A stretch of DNA of 64,000 nucleotides, from the NCBI RefSeq assembly GCF_000697965.2, contig NZ_CP015880.1, positions 1,798,001 through 1,862,000 of the forward strand, given 5' to 3'. This DNA is from Ensifer adhaerens (GTDB lineage: Bacteria > Pseudomonadota > Alphaproteobacteria > Rhizobiales > Rhizobiaceae). Every line of letters begins with the position of its first letter. Position 1 is the stretch's first letter. Positions 20,385 through 26,017 of this stretch are shown here, piece after piece. The notes beneath the pieces were generated by a model. That model made no database searches and was not told where the DNA came from. It saw nothing but the letters and a program-made list of their open reading frames with translations. Both the position numbers and the translations under genes were made by a program.

Positions 20385-21329
20385 TCAGTCTTTCAGGTAG
20401 CGCTTGATGTGCCAGCGGTCGTGATACCAGAGCCATTGGCCGGGATACTCCCTCACCCAGCTTTCCACCTTGTCGTTCAGAACCTGCGCCGTAGCGGTCA
20501 CGTCGACGCTGCCGTCGGCCTTGCGTGGGATGGCGATCGCCGGTTCGATCTCCAGGCGGAAACGGCCACCCGGCAAGCGGATGCAGCGGGCCGGATAGAC
20601 CTCGCAGTTGAACTGGCGGACGAGCTTGGCGAGCAGCGGGTTGGTCTGCACATCCTGGCCGAAGAACTTGGTCTTTAGACCCTTGCGGAATTTCTGGTCG
20701 ACGAGAACCCCGACGCCCTGGCCGCGCTCCAGCTGGCGGGCGAGCGCAAAGGACGAGCCCGCATGCGACGGCACGAGCTTGCCCATGCGTTCTGCGCGGA
20801 AGTTGAAGACCTTCTCGGCCACGTATGGGTTGTTCGGCGGCCGGAACAGCACCGTCACGTCGAGCCCGAAGGCTGAGCCGGCGACCGGCAGCATTTCGAA
20901 ATTGCCGCTATGCGCGGTAAAGACGATGAAGGGGCGCGGATTGTCGCGAAGCTCGAGGAACAAGGGAATGCCCGAGACTTCGATGCGCCCGGGCGTCGTG
21001 CGCTCCGGGTCGAAATCGAAGAGACGGTCGAGGAACACGTATTCGGCCGCCATGCGGCCCATGTTGCCCCAACTTTCGAGCGCGATCTGCTCGATCTCCG
21101 CTTCGCTCTTTTCCGGGAATGCATTGCGCAGGTTCGTCAGCGTCAGCTTCTGACGGCTGGTCTTCGGGCCGATGAACCGCAGGGCGCGATCCATGAAGTT
21201 GATCGCGCCGTCAGCGGGAAACATCTTCAGGATCGTCAGAAGCAGAAACACGAACTGCGCAATCAGCCACTGGCGGAAACGATCCGCCGCCAGCACCAGC
21301 CGTGTGATCAGCATGCGCACGTCGATCAA
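20385..21329 (-). CDS. lpxXL: Lipid A very-long-chain acyltransferase LpxXL
   Basis: This is a lysophospholipid/lipid A acyltransferase-family enzyme of 314 aa. Its TTG start overlaps the adh stop; an ATG at 21314 would shorten it by five residues. Features: an N-terminal hydrophobic anchor (about 22-35), the catalytic HX4D/E-type motif HSGNFE (H140, E145), VLFRPPNNP and the late GVLVDQKF. LpxXL moves the C28 (27-OH-C28:0) acyl chain from AcpXL to a lipid A hydroxy-acyl group at the inner membrane. It is the last gene of the acpXL cluster, which decides this assignment over LpxL/HtrB. Confidence 0.92.
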   Translation of the reverse strand: MIDVRMLITRLVLAADRFRQWLIAQFVFLLLTILKMFPADGAINFMDRALRFIGPKTSRQKLTLTNLRNAFPEKSEAEIEQIALESWGNMGRMAAEYVFLDRLFDFDPERTTPGRIEVSGIPLFLELRDNPRPFIVFTAHSGNFEMLPVAGSAFGLDVTVLFRPPNNPYVAEKVFNFRAERMGKLVPSHAGSSFALARQLERGQGVGVLVDQKFRKGLKTKFFGQDVQTNPLLAKLVRQFNCEVYPARCIRLPGGRFRLEIEPAIAIPRKADGSVDVTATAQVLNDKVESWVREYPGQWLWYHDRWHIKRYLKD

Positions 21330-22354
21330 TCCATCTTCAGGATGATCTTGCCGAAGATCTGGCGCGATTCCATGCGCTCCAGCGCGCGGTCGATCTCGTC
21401 GAGGCCGATTTCGGTGTCGATGACCGGATGTACGAGGCCGCGCGCCATCTTCTGCATGGCGTTCGCCATGTTTTCCATGCGGCAGCCGAAGGAGCCGAGC
21501 AGCTTCAGCTGCTGCTGGAACAGCATCATCAGGTTCATGTCGGTGGACACGCCCGAGGTCGAGCCGCAGGTGACCAAGCGGCCGCCGCGCTTCATGCAGA
21601 GCATCGAGCCCGCCCAGGTGTCCTTGCCGACGTGTTCGAACACGACGTCGACGCCCTTCTTCTTGGTAAGCTTGCGCACCACGCCCTCGAAGCGGTCGGT
21701 GCGGTAGTTGATGACGTGATCGGCGCCGAGCGCCTTGGCCTTCTCGATCTTGTCGTCGGAGCCGACGGTGGTGATCACGGTGCAGCCGATCTTCTTGGCA
21801 AGCTGGATCGCCGCCGAGCCGATGCCGGAACCGCCAGCATGCACGAGGATGGTTTCGCCGGGCTCAAGCTTGGCGTTGTCGAACAGCATGTGCTCGACGG
21901 TACCGAAGGTGACCGGAGCAAGGGCTGCAGCGACCGCGTCGACGCCCGGAGGTGCCGGTACCAGCAGGCGCGCCGGCAGGTTGATCTTTTCCTGCGCGAA
22001 GCCGTCGAGGTGGAAGCCGTGAACGCCGCCGACATGTTCGCAGAGGTTGTCGCGGCCTTCCTTGCACGGACGGCAGAGGCCGCAGGTGCGCGCGCCGTAG
22101 ATCGAGACGAGCTGGCCCGGAAGCACGCTTGAAACACCGGGACCGATGCTGTCGACGACGCCTGCTGCCTCGGCGCCGATGACGAGCGGCATCTTGCGCT
22201 TGGCGAATGCCATGCCGCGCCAGCCCCAGACGTCGATATGGTTGAGCGCAACCGCCTTGACGCGCAACGTCACCTCGCCCGGGCCGGGTGCTTCCGGTTC
22301 CGGAATGTCGGTGATTTCGAGCTTGCGGTCATCGAGCAGTTGCAGGGCGCGCAT
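21326..22354 (-). CDS. Zinc-type alcohol dehydrogenase (MDR family) of the acpXL cluster
   Basis: This is a 342-aa medium-chain dehydrogenase/reductase. It has the GroES-like N-terminal half with GAEAAGVVDSIGPGV and a Cys cluster CGLCRPCKEGRDNLC (structural zinc). The Rossmann half shows HAGGSGIGSAAIQLAKKIG. In rhizobia the equivalent gene always sits between fabF1 and lpxXL and has a role in finishing the very-long-chain hydroxy fatty acid. The exact reaction is unproven (family knowledge). A gap of 277 nt holding inverted repeats separates it from fabF1. Confidence 0.9.
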   Translation of the reverse strand: MRALQLLDDRKLEITDIPEPEAPGPGEVTLRVKAVALNHIDVWGWRGMAFAKRKMPLVIGAEAAGVVDSIGPGVSSVLPGQLVSIYGARTCGLCRPCKEGRDNLCEHVGGVHGFHLDGFAQEKINLPARLLVPAPPGVDAVAAALAPVTFGTVEHMLFDNAKLEPGETILVHAGGSGIGSAAIQLAKKIGCTVITTVGSDDKIEKAKALGADHVINYRTDRFEGVVRKLTKKKGVDVVFEHVGKDTWAGSMLCMKRGGRLVTCGSTSGVSTDMNLMMLFQQQLKLLGSFGCRMENMANAMQKMARGLVHPVIDTEIGLDEIDRALERMESRQIFGKIILKMD

Positions 22355-22631: not shown

Positions 22632-23915
22632 TCAAGCCGGCTCGGCCGTCATCACCAGGCTGGCGTTCTGGCCGCCGAAACCGAAGGAGTTCGACAGCAC
22701 CGCAGACACCTGCTGGCTGCGTTTCACGTTCGGCACCACGTCGAGCACGATCGCCGGATCGGGGTTCTGGTAGTTGATCGTCGGCGGCAGCGTGCCCGTC
22801 AGCATCGTCAGAATCGAGAACACCGCCTCGACCGCGCCGGCGGCCGTCAGGGTGTGGCCGATCATCGACTTGTTCGACGAGACCGGGATCGACGGCAGAT
22901 GCTCACCGAAGACGGCAGACATCGACAGATATTCCATCTTGTCGTTCTCGGGCGTCGAGGTGCCGTGCGCGTTGATGTAGCCGATGCCGCCTTCGTCGAT
23001 GCCGGCGTCGGCAAGGGCCGCGCGGATCGTCGCAATCGCCGGGCCGCCGTCGGGCGACGAGCGCGTGCGGTGGAAGAGATCGGCCTTCTCGCCGCAGCCC
23101 TTCAGGATGCCGTAGACACGGGCGCCGCGGGCAACGGCAGATTCAAGCGATTCCAGGACCAGGGTCGCAGCGCCTTCGGCGATGACGAAGCCGTCCCGAT
23201 CCTTTGTGAAGGGCTTGGAGGCCTTCTCCGGCGGATCGTTCTGGGTGGAGAGCGCGGAAAGCAGCGCAAAGCGGATGAGTGCTTCGGCGCTGACCGAACC
23301 ATCGGTCGCTACCGTCAGCGCACGATCGGTGCGGCCCTGGCGGATCGCCTCGACGCCGAGCTGGATCGCGGTCGCGCCCGAGGCACAGGCCGTCGAGAGC
23401 GTCACCGGCAGGCCGCGCGTGCCGAAGCGATCGGCAAGGCGCTCGGAGATCGAGCCGAAGAGCACGGCCTCATGGAACACCGGATCGGCCTTCTGGCGCA
23501 TCGCGGCGAGGAAACGGTTGTACGCATCGCCCGGCTGTTCGGAAGGCGGCGAGCGGTCGGCAAGCTCGAAGCGCGCGCTCCATTCAGGCTCGATCGGCGG
23601 GGCGGCCAGAAACAGCGGACCGTTGAAGTCGCCGGAAAGCCCCGCCTGCGCCAGCGCTTCCAGCGTCGTCTCGCGCGCCATGGCGTAGGAGCGCTCGACG
23701 GAGTTGGCCGCCGGCACCTCGATGAAATCGACCATGCCGGAGATGCGGGTGTTGAGACCCTCCGTCGGGAAACGGGTGATCTTGCGGATGCCGGAGACGC
23801 CGCCGGTCAGCGCCGACCAGTTGTCCTCGAGCCCCTGGCCGAGCGAGGTGATGACGCCCATGCCAGTGACGGCGACGATCGGACGACCGAGATGATCCTT
23901 GTAAGCGTTGCTCAT
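22632..23915 (-). CDS. fabF1XL: Beta-ketoacyl-ACP synthase, intact (very-long-chain FabF1)
   Basis: This 427-aa elongating condensing enzyme has the full catalytic triad: C177 in STACASGATAIQ, H317 in NAHGTSTP and H354 in NKSMIGHTLTAAGA, with K349. Start ATG 23915 follows GAGGAACG; a TTG lies one codon upstream. It extends acyl chains on AcpXL toward C28. Its neighbour fabF2 (12 nt upstream) has lost the active Cys, so this is the only visible condensing activity in the cluster. Confidence 0.93.
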   Translation of the reverse strand: MSNAYKDHLGRPIVAVTGMGVITSLGQGLEDNWSALTGGVSGIRKITRFPTEGLNTRISGMVDFIEVPAANSVERSYAMARETTLEALAQAGLSGDFNGPLFLAAPPIEPEWSARFELADRSPPSEQPGDAYNRFLAAMRQKADPVFHEAVLFGSISERLADRFGTRGLPVTLSTACASGATAIQLGVEAIRQGRTDRALTVATDGSVSAEALIRFALLSALSTQNDPPEKASKPFTKDRDGFVIAEGAATLVLESLESAVARGARVYGILKGCGEKADLFHRTRSSPDGGPAIATIRAALADAGIDEGGIGYINAHGTSTPENDKMEYLSMSAVFGEHLPSIPVSSNKSMIGHTLTAAGAVEAVFSILTMLTGTLPPTINYQNPDPAIVLDVVPNVKRSQQVSAVLSNSFGFGGQNASLVMTAEPA

Positions 23916-23927
23916 CAATCGTTCCTC

Positions 23928-25130
23928 TTATTCGGCCGAAAGGACCGCGACGCCTTCGCCGCGTGAATGACCGACGGTGGTCACGACCGCCGACCGGGCA
24001 GCCGCCGTCATCGGCTTTTCGAAGCTGCCGTCGAAGGCCGGTACCTTGGCGCCGTGGCCGAGCGTGAGTGCAGCAAGCGCGAGGCCCGCCGGAAACTGCG
24101 CCTCGATGCTGTGCCCGACGATGCCGCCATAGGCACGCACCGGCGCGCCGGCCAGATTGGCCTGCAGGAACGCCTTTTCGCTGGCGACGAGATCATGAAA
24201 GCCTGACGTGCCGGAAAAGACCACGGTGCCTGCAGGGTCGAGCTTTTCGGCCGGTTTCGCAAGGTCCGCAAGGCGGGCTTCGAGCTTGCCGTCAGCGCGG
24301 CTGCCGCGGTCGCTGCCGATCGCGTCGATCGTCGCATAGATACGGGCGCCACGGGCTTCGGCGTACTCGCGTGATTCCAGCACCAGGAAGGCTCCGACCG
24401 ACCCGGGGATCATGCCGCCGCCGTTGTCGCGGCTGCGCGACCAGATCGGGTGCCAGTCACCGGTCGCCTGGCCCTGGATCGCCTCGATCATCAGCATGAT
24501 GTCCAGGCGCTCGGCCGAAAACGCGCCGCCGACGAGCGTATGCGTCGACTGGCCGGCCTTGATCCGGGCAAAGGCGGTTTCGATCGCCGAGATGCCGGCC
24601 GCTTCCTCGCCCATGAAGGTGCGCGACGAACCGGTGACCTTGTGCACGATCGAGATGTTGCCGGCGAGCAGGTTCGAAAGCTGGGCCAGGAACAGCGTCG
24701 GGCGCAGTTCGGTCGTCAGCTTTTCATTGAGGAGCTGTTCGCGGTCGTTGCGCTTCAGCGCCTCGTCGACGATCAGCGAATCGACGTTGATGTCACGCTC
24801 GCCGCCGCCGGCAGCGACGATCATGTCCATGCTGCCGCAGGCTTCGAGATTGTCCTTGAGACCGGCGTCATCGAGCGCCAGGCCCGCGGAAAAAACGCCG
24901 AGACGCTGCCAGTTTTCCATCTGCCGCTGGTCGCCACGCTTGGCGATCTGCTGCGACCAGTCGATCTCCGGCAGCGGGTGCACCGGATAGGGGCTGAACT
25001 TTTCGGTCTCGACGCGCACGGCCGGCGACGTGCCGGCGGTAAGCAGCGCCAGATGCGGCTCGACGCCGACGCCCTGGCTGGTGACGATACCGACGCCGGT
25101 AATGACAACGTCGTTTGCAGATTTGCTCAT
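23928..25130 (-). CDS. fabF2XL: Beta-ketoacyl-ACP synthase homologue lacking the catalytic Cys (FabF2)
   Basis: This is a 400-aa protein with the thiolase fold of FabF (start VVITGVGIVTSQGVGVEPH, end VVTTVGHSRGEGVAVLSAE). The nucleophile position reads FMGEEAAGISAIE, putting Glu (about E176) where FabF1 has Cys. The HGTS His is replaced (FSGTSG, about S306), and only the GH pair near H340 remains. It therefore cannot condense in the normal way. It sits between fabZ (1 nt) and fabF1 (12 nt), tightly coupled. This recalls the KS/chain-length-factor pairs of type II polyketide synthases. Whether FabF2 pairs with FabF1 is inference. Confidence 0.9.
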   Translation of the reverse strand: MSKSANDVVITGVGIVTSQGVGVEPHLALLTAGTSPAVRVETEKFSPYPVHPLPEIDWSQQIAKRGDQRQMENWQRLGVFSAGLALDDAGLKDNLEACGSMDMIVAAGGGERDINVDSLIVDEALKRNDREQLLNEKLTTELRPTLFLAQLSNLLAGNISIVHKVTGSSRTFMGEEAAGISAIETAFARIKAGQSTHTLVGGAFSAERLDIMLMIEAIQGQATGDWHPIWSRSRDNGGGMIPGSVGAFLVLESREYAEARGARIYATIDAIGSDRGSRADGKLEARLADLAKPAEKLDPAGTVVFSGTSGFHDLVASEKAFLQANLAGAPVRAYGGIVGHSIEAQFPAGLALAALTLGHGAKVPAFDGSFEKPMTAAARSAVVTTVGHSRGEGVAVLSAE

Positions 25131-25131
25131 C

Positions 25132-25617
25132 TTACTTCTCCGAACCGGCTGCCGCCGAAAGCGCCGCCATCAGACCCACTTCTCCAGCCCGCTTGCGCAC
25201 GATATCGCCGAGCGGAACCTGATCGAACGGCATCGTTCTCAGTTTCAGCTGGGCATCGCAGACCTTCTTGCCGCCAGAGGTGATCTTCGCCTTGGTGACG
25301 GCAAAGCCCGAACCTTCATGCTCGAGGAAAGCCTCGATCTCGAGTTCGGCCGAGGGCTCGACGAAGGTCCGCATCTTGGCGCCGTCGACCGACATCAGGA
25401 AGGGCATGGCGGCGAAATTGGTGGCGGCGAGCACCAGGAAACCGGAGGCCTGCGCCATGGTCTCGATCAGAAGCACGCCGGGCACCAGCGGGTAGCCTGG
25501 GAAATGGCCTTCGAACACCGGGCTCTTCTCCGGCACGACGGACCGCGCCGTCAGCCGGCCAGCCGAAAGATCGACCGTTTCGACACGGTCGATCATCTGG
25601 AAGTATTCAAGGAGCAT
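25132..25617 (-). CDS. fabZXL: 3-hydroxyacyl-ACP dehydratase, FabZ-like, of the acpXL cluster
   Basis: This is a 161-aa hotdog-fold protein. The catalytic region EGHFPGYPLVPGVLLIE holds the active-site His (H38), and the central helix follows (IETMAQASGFLVL). It is slightly longer than housekeeping FabZ because of an Ala-rich C-terminal tail (LSAAAGSEK). It dehydrates 3-hydroxyacyl-AcpXL during very-long-chain synthesis. It is separated from acpXL by a hairpin/terminator-like element and is 1 nt from fabF2. Confidence 0.92.
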   Translation of the reverse strand: MLLEYFQMIDRVETVDLSAGRLTARSVVPEKSPVFEGHFPGYPLVPGVLLIETMAQASGFLVLAATNFAAMPFLMSVDGAKMRTFVEPSAELEIEAFLEHEGSGFAVTKAKITSGGKKVCDAQLKLRTMPFDQVPLGDIVRKRAGEVGLMAALSAAAGSEK

Positions 25618-25732: not shown

Positions 25733-26017
25733 TCAGCCCTTGGCAGCCCGCAGTTCGTCGATCTTGGCGCAGAGGTTCTTCAGAACGAAGTATTCTTCGG
25801 TCGAAACCTTGCCTTCGTTGACTTCCTGCGTCCACTGCTCGAGCGGAATCTTGATGCCGAATTCCTTGTCGATCGCAAACACGATGTCGAGGAAGTCCAG
25901 GCTGTCGATGCCGAGATCGTCGATCGTGTGGCTTTCCGGCGTAATCGTCTCGCGATCGATCTCGCTCGTTTCCGCGATAATGTCGGCAACCTTGTCGAAT
26001 GTAGCTGTCACGCGCAT
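25733..26017 (-). CDS. acpXL: Acyl carrier protein AcpXL
   Basis: This is a 94-aa acidic carrier protein with the 4'-phosphopantetheine site in [14 protein letters not shown] (S39). It is longer than FabD/FabF-type AcpP (about 78 aa), as expected for AcpXL, with the extra C-terminal region [23 protein letters not shown]. It carries the growing 27-hydroxy C28 chain for lipid A. It is the first gene of the cluster. The following hairpin suggests separate high expression. Confidence 0.95.

Follow-up and report, generated by a model that had tools for sequence, protein, structure and literature searches.

A ketosynthase-like protein that has lost its catalytic residues, encoded beside an active ketosynthase in the acpXL cluster of Ensifer adhaerens

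Paired ketosynthases and the acpXL cluster

Ordinary FabF (KASII) forms homodimers, each with two active sites and two docking patches, and it makes chains of about 18 carbons. In type II polyketide synthases, an active ketosynthase (KS) is paired with a KS-like chain-length factor (CLF), which usually has Gln at the position of the catalytic Cys. PfaC, a single polypeptide within a giant type I-like synthase for polyunsaturated acids, is a further system to be compared with the locus described here. The acpXL gene cluster lets rhizobia make a 28-carbon fatty acid for the outer membrane, an acyl chain that these bacteria and their relatives build on a carrier protein.

Two ketosynthase-like genes, fabF2XL and fabF1XL, occur in this cluster. 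The family model for FabF2XL (NF005084, PRK06519) and the excerpts of the papers that were consulted name it a beta-ketoacyl-ACP synthase; the excerpts of PMC11901934 label both fabF genes 3-oxoacyl-ACP synthase II. The gene studied here, fabF2, is a plain member of the fabF2XL family of rhizobial acpXL clusters, but our analysis finds its catalytic residues lost. Among the titles and abstract openings retrieved, in a search that mostly lay outside the subscription journals, none describes FabF2XL as dead or as a chain-length factor, and the excerpts of PMC11901934, PMC5613085 and PMC5539429 make no mention of its catalytic loss.

The window, by which we mean the whole 64,000-nucleotide stretch analysed (positions 1,798,001 to 1,862,000 of contig NZ_CP015880.1), comes from an E. 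adhaerens assembly of 7.27 Mb in 3 contigs. On its minus strand it carries acpXL, fabZXL, fabF2, fabF1, a dehydrogenase gene and lpxXL (Table 1). LpxXL is the acyltransferase that adds the very-long-chain fatty acid (VLCFA) to lipid A, according to publications that include the excerpts of PMC11901934. FabF2 scores 616 bits against NF005084 over residues 2-399, which makes it a member by the curated cut-off of 320, and its nearest named relatives are Ensifer/Sinorhizobium proteins of 93-95% identity. FabF1 scores 767 bits against NF005076, where the cut-off is 629. We place the start of fabF1 at the ATG at 23915; the mechanical ORF start is a TTG one codon earlier, at 23918. The gap of 12 nt between the FabF2 stop and this ATG, given in a preliminary description of the locus, is confirmed, and fabF2 and fabF1 share one reading frame.

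Table 1. Coordinates of the acpXL cluster genes and of selected FabF2 and FabF1 sites in the window
Feature	Position	Strand	Basis
lpxXL, lipid A acyltransferase	20385..21329	-	NF005120
Zinc-type dehydrogenase/reductase (adhA2XL in published work)	21326..22354	-	Domain/family profile matches
fabF1 (fabF1XL), active ketosynthase, 427 aa from ATG	22632..23915	-	NCBIfam NF005076 (PRK06501)
FabF1 catalytic C177 codon	23385..23387	-	Sequence and alignment
fabF2 (fabF2XL), pseudo-ketosynthase, 400 aa	23928..25130	-	NCBIfam NF005084 (PRK06519)
FabF2 H340 codon, second catalytic His, present in the window FabF2, not family-wide	24111..24113	-	Alignment
FabF2 S306 codon, at or adjoining the column of the first catalytic His (H303, E. 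coli FabF)	24213..24215	-	Alignment
FabF2 E175 and E176 codons; E176 at the catalytic Cys position	24603..24608	-	Alignment, 124 sequences
FabF2 residues 138-163, LTTELRPTLFLAQLSNLLAGNISIVH, near-invariant; putative AcpXL docking patch and tunnel/interface wall	24642..24719	-	Columns 129-132
FabF2 residues 61-76, QIAKRGDQRQMENWQR; putative docking region 1	24903..24950	-	Basic-residue conservation
fabZXL, FabZ-like dehydratase	25132..25617	-	Domain/family profile matches
acpXL, dedicated acyl carrier protein	25733..26017	-	NF005079, 190 bits, cut-off 83

Catalytic residues of FabF2 and FabF1

We aligned 124 FabF2 and 124 FabF1 sequences, from 123 loci and the window, with 21 housekeeping FabF proteins, and used E. 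coli FabF for numbering. Locus L128, which is cut by a contig end, and second copies were left out. Rhizobiaceae are strongly represented among the aligned sequences (judging by their titles, they supply most of the 80 loci in one sample), which reduce to a non-redundant set of 42 loci at 80% FabF2 identity.

The nucleophile elbow of the window FabF2 reads GSSRTFMGEEAAG, with E176 in the column of the catalytic Cys and E175 in that of the preceding Ala. The Glu at the nucleophile position, on which the preliminary description rested, turns out to be invariant: positions 162 and 163 are both Glu in 124/124 FabF2 sequences, and Cys occupies the nucleophile column in 0/124. The motif GSSRTFMGEE is present in 120/120 of the best database proteins listed, all of which are at least 73% identical and so add little breadth. 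Diverged second copies of FabF2 that cover the site, from the genomes G011, G059, G096 and G046, retain GEE in 4/4 cases.

The first catalytic His is also gone, as had been described; column 303 holds no His in any of the 124 FabF2 sequences, and the window has S306 or G307 there, depending on the alignment. For the second catalytic His, the earlier statement that FabF2 keeps it is correct for the window, where H340 lies in GHS, but not for the family, in which the column reads His in 115, Gln in 5, Asn in 2 and Thr in 2. Nor does the loss stop at the Cys and one His that were first reported. Lys335 is Lys in 0/124, the GFGG gate has disappeared (Phe400 in just 2/124) and the D265 loop is a gap in 124/124. 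By the Cys-His-His triad and Lys335, FabF2 does not belong among the active elongating ketosynthases (FabF/KASII).

The gene is nevertheless under purifying selection, with dN/dS of 0.12-0.28 in 7/7 pairs; FabF1 gives 0.045-0.16 in the six comparisons computed for both genes. Judged by its conservation in 124/124 aligned homologues and 120/120 best matches, together with these dN/dS values, the Glu at the Cys column is the product of neither chance nor decay. Six charged residues that are invariant or nearly so (R170, E175, E176, R208, R332 and E343) fall in columns near the old active site, where they might form a buried salt-bridge plug.

FabF1 has C177, H317 and H354 intact, as first described, when residues are counted from the ATG (178, 318 and 355 from the TTG). 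In the numbering of E. coli FabF, with which it shares the fold and the catalytic set, Cys163, His303 and Lys335 are kept in 124/124. At about residues 101-112, FabF1 has a conserved FLAxPPxExEW-like motif (FLAAPPIEPEW in the window) in place of the GSGIGG of FabF, followed by a loop of varying length. Motif and loop may amount to an altered tunnel gate. The FabF1 alignment is uncertain around columns 105-135, and gate changes at position 108 were set aside, the alignment there being too uncertain.

Pairing with FabF1 and the carrier-docking surface

In a sample of 150 genomes of the order, FabF2 exceeds its cut-off in 38, and FabF1 exceeds its own in the identical 38. AcpXL is found in 37 of these 38, the exception (G128) being a genome that is 88% complete. 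Each of the five genomes in which FabF2 matches more than once (G011, G046, G059, G096 and G128, the last with its matches in fragments) has two FabF1 matches, at E <=1e-110. In a sample of 385 genomes of the class, which partly overlaps the order sample, 18 carry FabF2, each scoring above the cut-off. FabF1 reaches E 1e-110 in 17 of those 18 (and exceeds its curated cut-off in 10) and in none of the other genomes. The one remaining genome, G374, yields no FabF1 over the cut-off in a direct search, and its FabF2 sits at a contig end. No genome among the 150 of the order or the 385 of the class has FabF1 within the E-value bound and lacks FabF2. In a sample of the phylum (398 genomes, with the out-of-class share not given), all 35 FabF2 matches belong to the same class or nearer.

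In 109/109 loci, FabF2 has as its neighbour an ORF that carries the FabF1 Cys motif intact, and FabF1 was assigned in 14 of 15 additional loci, the fifteenth being the truncated L128. Together with the 38 shared genomes, this is the arrangement of KS/CLF systems, in which a dead KS-like subunit is encoded with an active KS. Two other lines of evidence were discarded. A mirror-tree correlation of 0.92 between FabF1 and FabF2 was not used, because vertical descent alone would produce such a value. Natural FabF2-FabF1 fusions were considered as proof of contact (4 of 29 proteins with E <=1e-40 were examined) and none of the four is credible; P0121, P0122, P0123 and P0125 are each represented by one sequence on one contig and contain out-of-frame stretches, and so look like frameshift products.

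The surface that receives the carrier protein is distributed unequally between the two proteins. The solved complexes of FabF with carrier protein show most contacts on the subunit that does not hold the substrate, which in AcpP-FabF is the monomer that is not crosslinked (excerpts of PMC7138838); in Iga11-Iga12, likewise, the ACP touches mainly the CLF. This implies that a dead partner should keep the docking patch, and that the live subunit may lose it. Over 12 docking columns in the 42 non-redundant loci, mean conservation is 0.811 in FabF2, above that of random column sets (P 0.005), and 0.479 in FabF1, below it (P 0.0001), in tests that ignore surface exposure and kinship.

In region 1, position 65 or 68 is basic in 21/21 housekeeping FabF, 42/42 FabF2 and 1/42 FabF1 (2/124 in the full set), and position 65 is acidic in 21/42 FabF1. 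Position 68 is Arg in 124/124 FabF2, all of which also have Lys or Arg among the four residues before column 67. Columns 129-132 read L-R-P-T in 123-124 of the 124 FabF2 sequences and are variable in FabF1. As a control, we examined 12 active ketosynthases from the same genomes that have the complete triad and 38-55% identity to E. coli FabF, including the housekeeping FabF of the window genome; all 12 are basic at 65 or 68 and also at 127 or 128, a combination present in 0/124 FabF1. Region 2 taken by itself has a basic residue at 127 or 128 in 87/124 FabF1 (20/42 non-redundant) and in 1/42 FabF2, where position 128 is acidic in 117/124.

By these counts, FabF1 has an eroded region 1 and hydrophobic patch, whereas FabF2 has both in an altered but near-invariant form. 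The docking surface as a whole looks split, with region 1 and the hydrophobic patch on FabF2 and part of region 2 on FabF1, and this apparent asymmetry between the two proteins is the new point of the present analysis. Columns 205, 206 and 270 are fixed in FabF1 (L in 124, S in 123 and T in 124 of 124) and not in FabF2; we infer that they sit at the mouth of the subunit that is loaded, as would be expected of a composite site. The FabF2 patch has been remade, not kept (a gap at column 65, Gln or Ala at 69, and a new Arg130), so its conservation may reflect the interface or the tunnel instead, and the fixed stretch may serve these two more than docking.

Structural models were made of FabF2 alone and of the two proteins joined. 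In FabF2, Pfam detects the N-terminal KS domain alone, but the monomer model is a complete KS (thiolase) fold with both of its halves. Residues 143-149 of this model lie below pLDDT 50, so it is uninformative on the docking loop. Since fabF2 and fabF1 are in one frame, reading the FabF2 stop as Gly gives a single chain of 832 residues; 35 further loci were joined likewise. The fused model has pLDDT 83.7 and pTM 0.88, and for block 141-150 pLDDT rises from 50 to just 63. The best of 50 Foldseek matches listed against the PDB is 6riw, the PfaC KS-CLF (E 4.7e-41, TM 0.71 by model length, 951 columns). It is also the only match listed that spans both halves of the fused chain, the other 49 covering one half (TM about 0.44). 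The two halves of the model thus pack like a KS/CLF pair, an outcome that AlphaFold may give for any two ketosynthases, and we read it as compatibility of the FabF2 and FabF1 sequences with a heterodimer and nothing beyond.

Proposed role of FabF2 and its alternatives

Genetic evidence comes from Agrobacterium fabrum, in which fabF2XL lies upstream of fabF1XL in one transcription unit (excerpts of PMC11901934). A fabF2XL insertion mutant of this species, described in the same excerpts, has lipid A with acids such as 16:0, 18:0 and 18:1 instead of VLCFA. The C28 acid, whose synthesis the preliminary description had tied to FabF2, is lost in this mutant. A polar effect of the insertion is possible. 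Introduction of fabF2XL alone on a plasmid partly restores VLCFA, however (excerpts of PMC11901934), which argues that FabF2 itself is needed. Since FabF2 has no working active site and VLCFA are not made without it, an obligate partner is the best reading. Attempts to mutate the two fabF genes of Bradyrhizobium ORS278 succeeded for neither (excerpts of PMC5613085).

The best explanation, to which we assign a probability of roughly 0.7, is that FabF2 is a dead ketosynthase that serves as the obligate 1:1 heterodimer partner of FabF1, docking AcpXL and walling the acyl tunnel in a KS/CLF-like manner. FabF1 would supply the single working active site (Cys177, His317, His354 and the Lys), and FabF2 would form a one-to-one heterodimer with it, an arrangement with which the fused model is compatible. 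AcpXL would dock mostly on the surface of FabF2 to reach Cys177 of FabF1, a proposal that draws on the conservation asymmetry and on the complexes solved by others. The acyl tunnel would cross the dimer interface, with FabF2 as a wall and with room for C26-C30. The sequences of the sampled family show the catalytic loss in FabF2, the strict pairing with FabF1 and the complementary pattern of conservation. That an active FabF1 pairs with an inactive FabF2, as proposed at the outset, accordingly gains support from the invariant Glu, from co-occurrence and adjacency, and from the complementary losses of catalytic residues in one protein and docking residues, mainly of region 1, in the other. The further proposal, that FabF2 shapes a tunnel for a C28 chain, is possible.

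A wider version of this reading is offered tentatively, at clearly less than even odds. It would make the pair a split ketosynthase for saturated VLCFA that arose in Alphaproteobacteria independently of the polyketide synthases, with FabF1 as the only active site and with FabF2 as the main AcpXL docking surface and far tunnel wall, the tunnel end of FabF2 deciding between C26, C28 and C30.

The FabF1-FabF2 pair resembles the KS/CLF pairs of type II polyketide synthases, such as those of actinorhodin (1tqy), ishigamide (Iga11-Iga12, 6kxd) and AntD-AntE (6smo), in its division of labour. It differs from them in the Cys position, which is Glu in all 124 FabF2 sequences where Gln is usual in a CLF, and in the product of its pathway, a hydroxylated C26-C30 fatty acid of lipid A. 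Profile scores of FabF2 (FabF 86.5, actinorhodin CLF 60.8, its KS 59.7 and 6smo_C, presumably the AntE CLF, 50.4 bits) indicate no special sequence nearness to known CLFs. Membership of the CLF family is thus not supported, and we take the pair as a probable separate origin of a KS/CLF-type division of labour. The PfaC KS-CLF didomain (6riw) of bacterial PUFA synthases shares with it the use of a KS and a KS-like CLF for long fatty acids; unlike PfaC, FabF2 and FabF1 are separate polypeptides of type II that have their own dedicated carrier, and the dead partner comes first in gene order. Compared with housekeeping FabF, catalysis and most of the docking surface seem divided over two genes.

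If FabF2 is indeed a dead docking and tunnel partner, FabF2XL should no longer be annotated as a second active synthase, and the great length of the chain can be tested as a feature of a single interface between proteins. KS/CLF logic would then have arisen separately, within a lipid A pathway linked to symbiosis and to the strength of the envelope.

Besides pairing with FabF1, FabF2 could be chiefly a length ruler, that is, a true chain-length factor whose tunnel bottom stops the chain at C26, C28 or C30. This overlaps the heterodimer reading, and we regard it as possible but somewhat improbable. It has the precedent of KS-CLF systems and, as far as the fused model can be trusted, a KS-CLF geometry. 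FabF2 columns 133-138, which we take from FabF structures to line the end of the partner's tunnel, are fixed in 121-124 of 124 sequences, whereas those of FabF1 vary. Near-invariant residues, however, explain poorly why species differ between C26 and C28. Moreover, the A. fabrum fabF2XL mutant had ordinary C16-C18 acids and no VLCFA of altered length, and such total loss fits an elongation partner at least as well as a ruler (excerpts of PMC11901934).

It is less probable still, and in our view unlikely, that FabF2 acts alone (one possibility being a homodimer that binds AcpXL as a scaffold or regulator), with FabF1 elongating as a homodimer. The case for the heterodimer is indirect, and in 87 of the 124 FabF1 sequences position 127 or 128 is basic, which would suit a FabF1 that docks AcpXL by itself. 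Against this reading, FabF1 has lost the region 1 residues that all 12 other active ketosynthases keep, and in the order and class samples it never occurs, within the E-value bound, in a genome that lacks FabF2.

Decarboxylating initiation, which the preliminary description had offered as a second option, is a very improbable role; FabF2 would then be KSQ-like and prime the pathway by making acetyl-AcpXL or in some other way. Other ketosynthases in which the Cys is replaced do decarboxylate malonyl-ACP. This reaction needs both catalytic His, and a KSQ decarboxylase has Gln for Cys with both His kept; FabF2 has Glu, not Gln, and has lost the first His in 124/124 and the second in 9/124. The idea that FabF2 is a functionless decaying duplicate, which its missing catalytic residues might suggest, can be dismissed in view of its dN/dS of 0.12-0.28 and long invariant stretches, its retention beside FabF1 in a genome of 1.5 Mb from the same family, and the A. 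fabrum mutant, which lost VLCFA and was partly complemented by fabF2XL alone (excerpts of PMC11901934).

The small genome just mentioned has FabF2 and FabF1 adjacent at G601:C2:215751-218206. Duplicated pairs were also observed. G011, G059 and G096 (loci L162, L163 and L164) each have two FabF2-FabF1 pairs and a single AcpXL. In these three genomes a diverged pair, with the motif SRTxKGEE, adjoins the sole AcpXL and FabZ matches and has a dehydrogenase downstream; no AcpXL was found next to the other, canonical-looking pair. In G059, the second FabF2 and the dehydrogenase are each broken into two ORFs. G046 (C461:6527-7726 and C405:2783-4027), from another family, has two FabF1 genes and two FabF2 genes, the second FabF2 with the motif SRTVKGEE.
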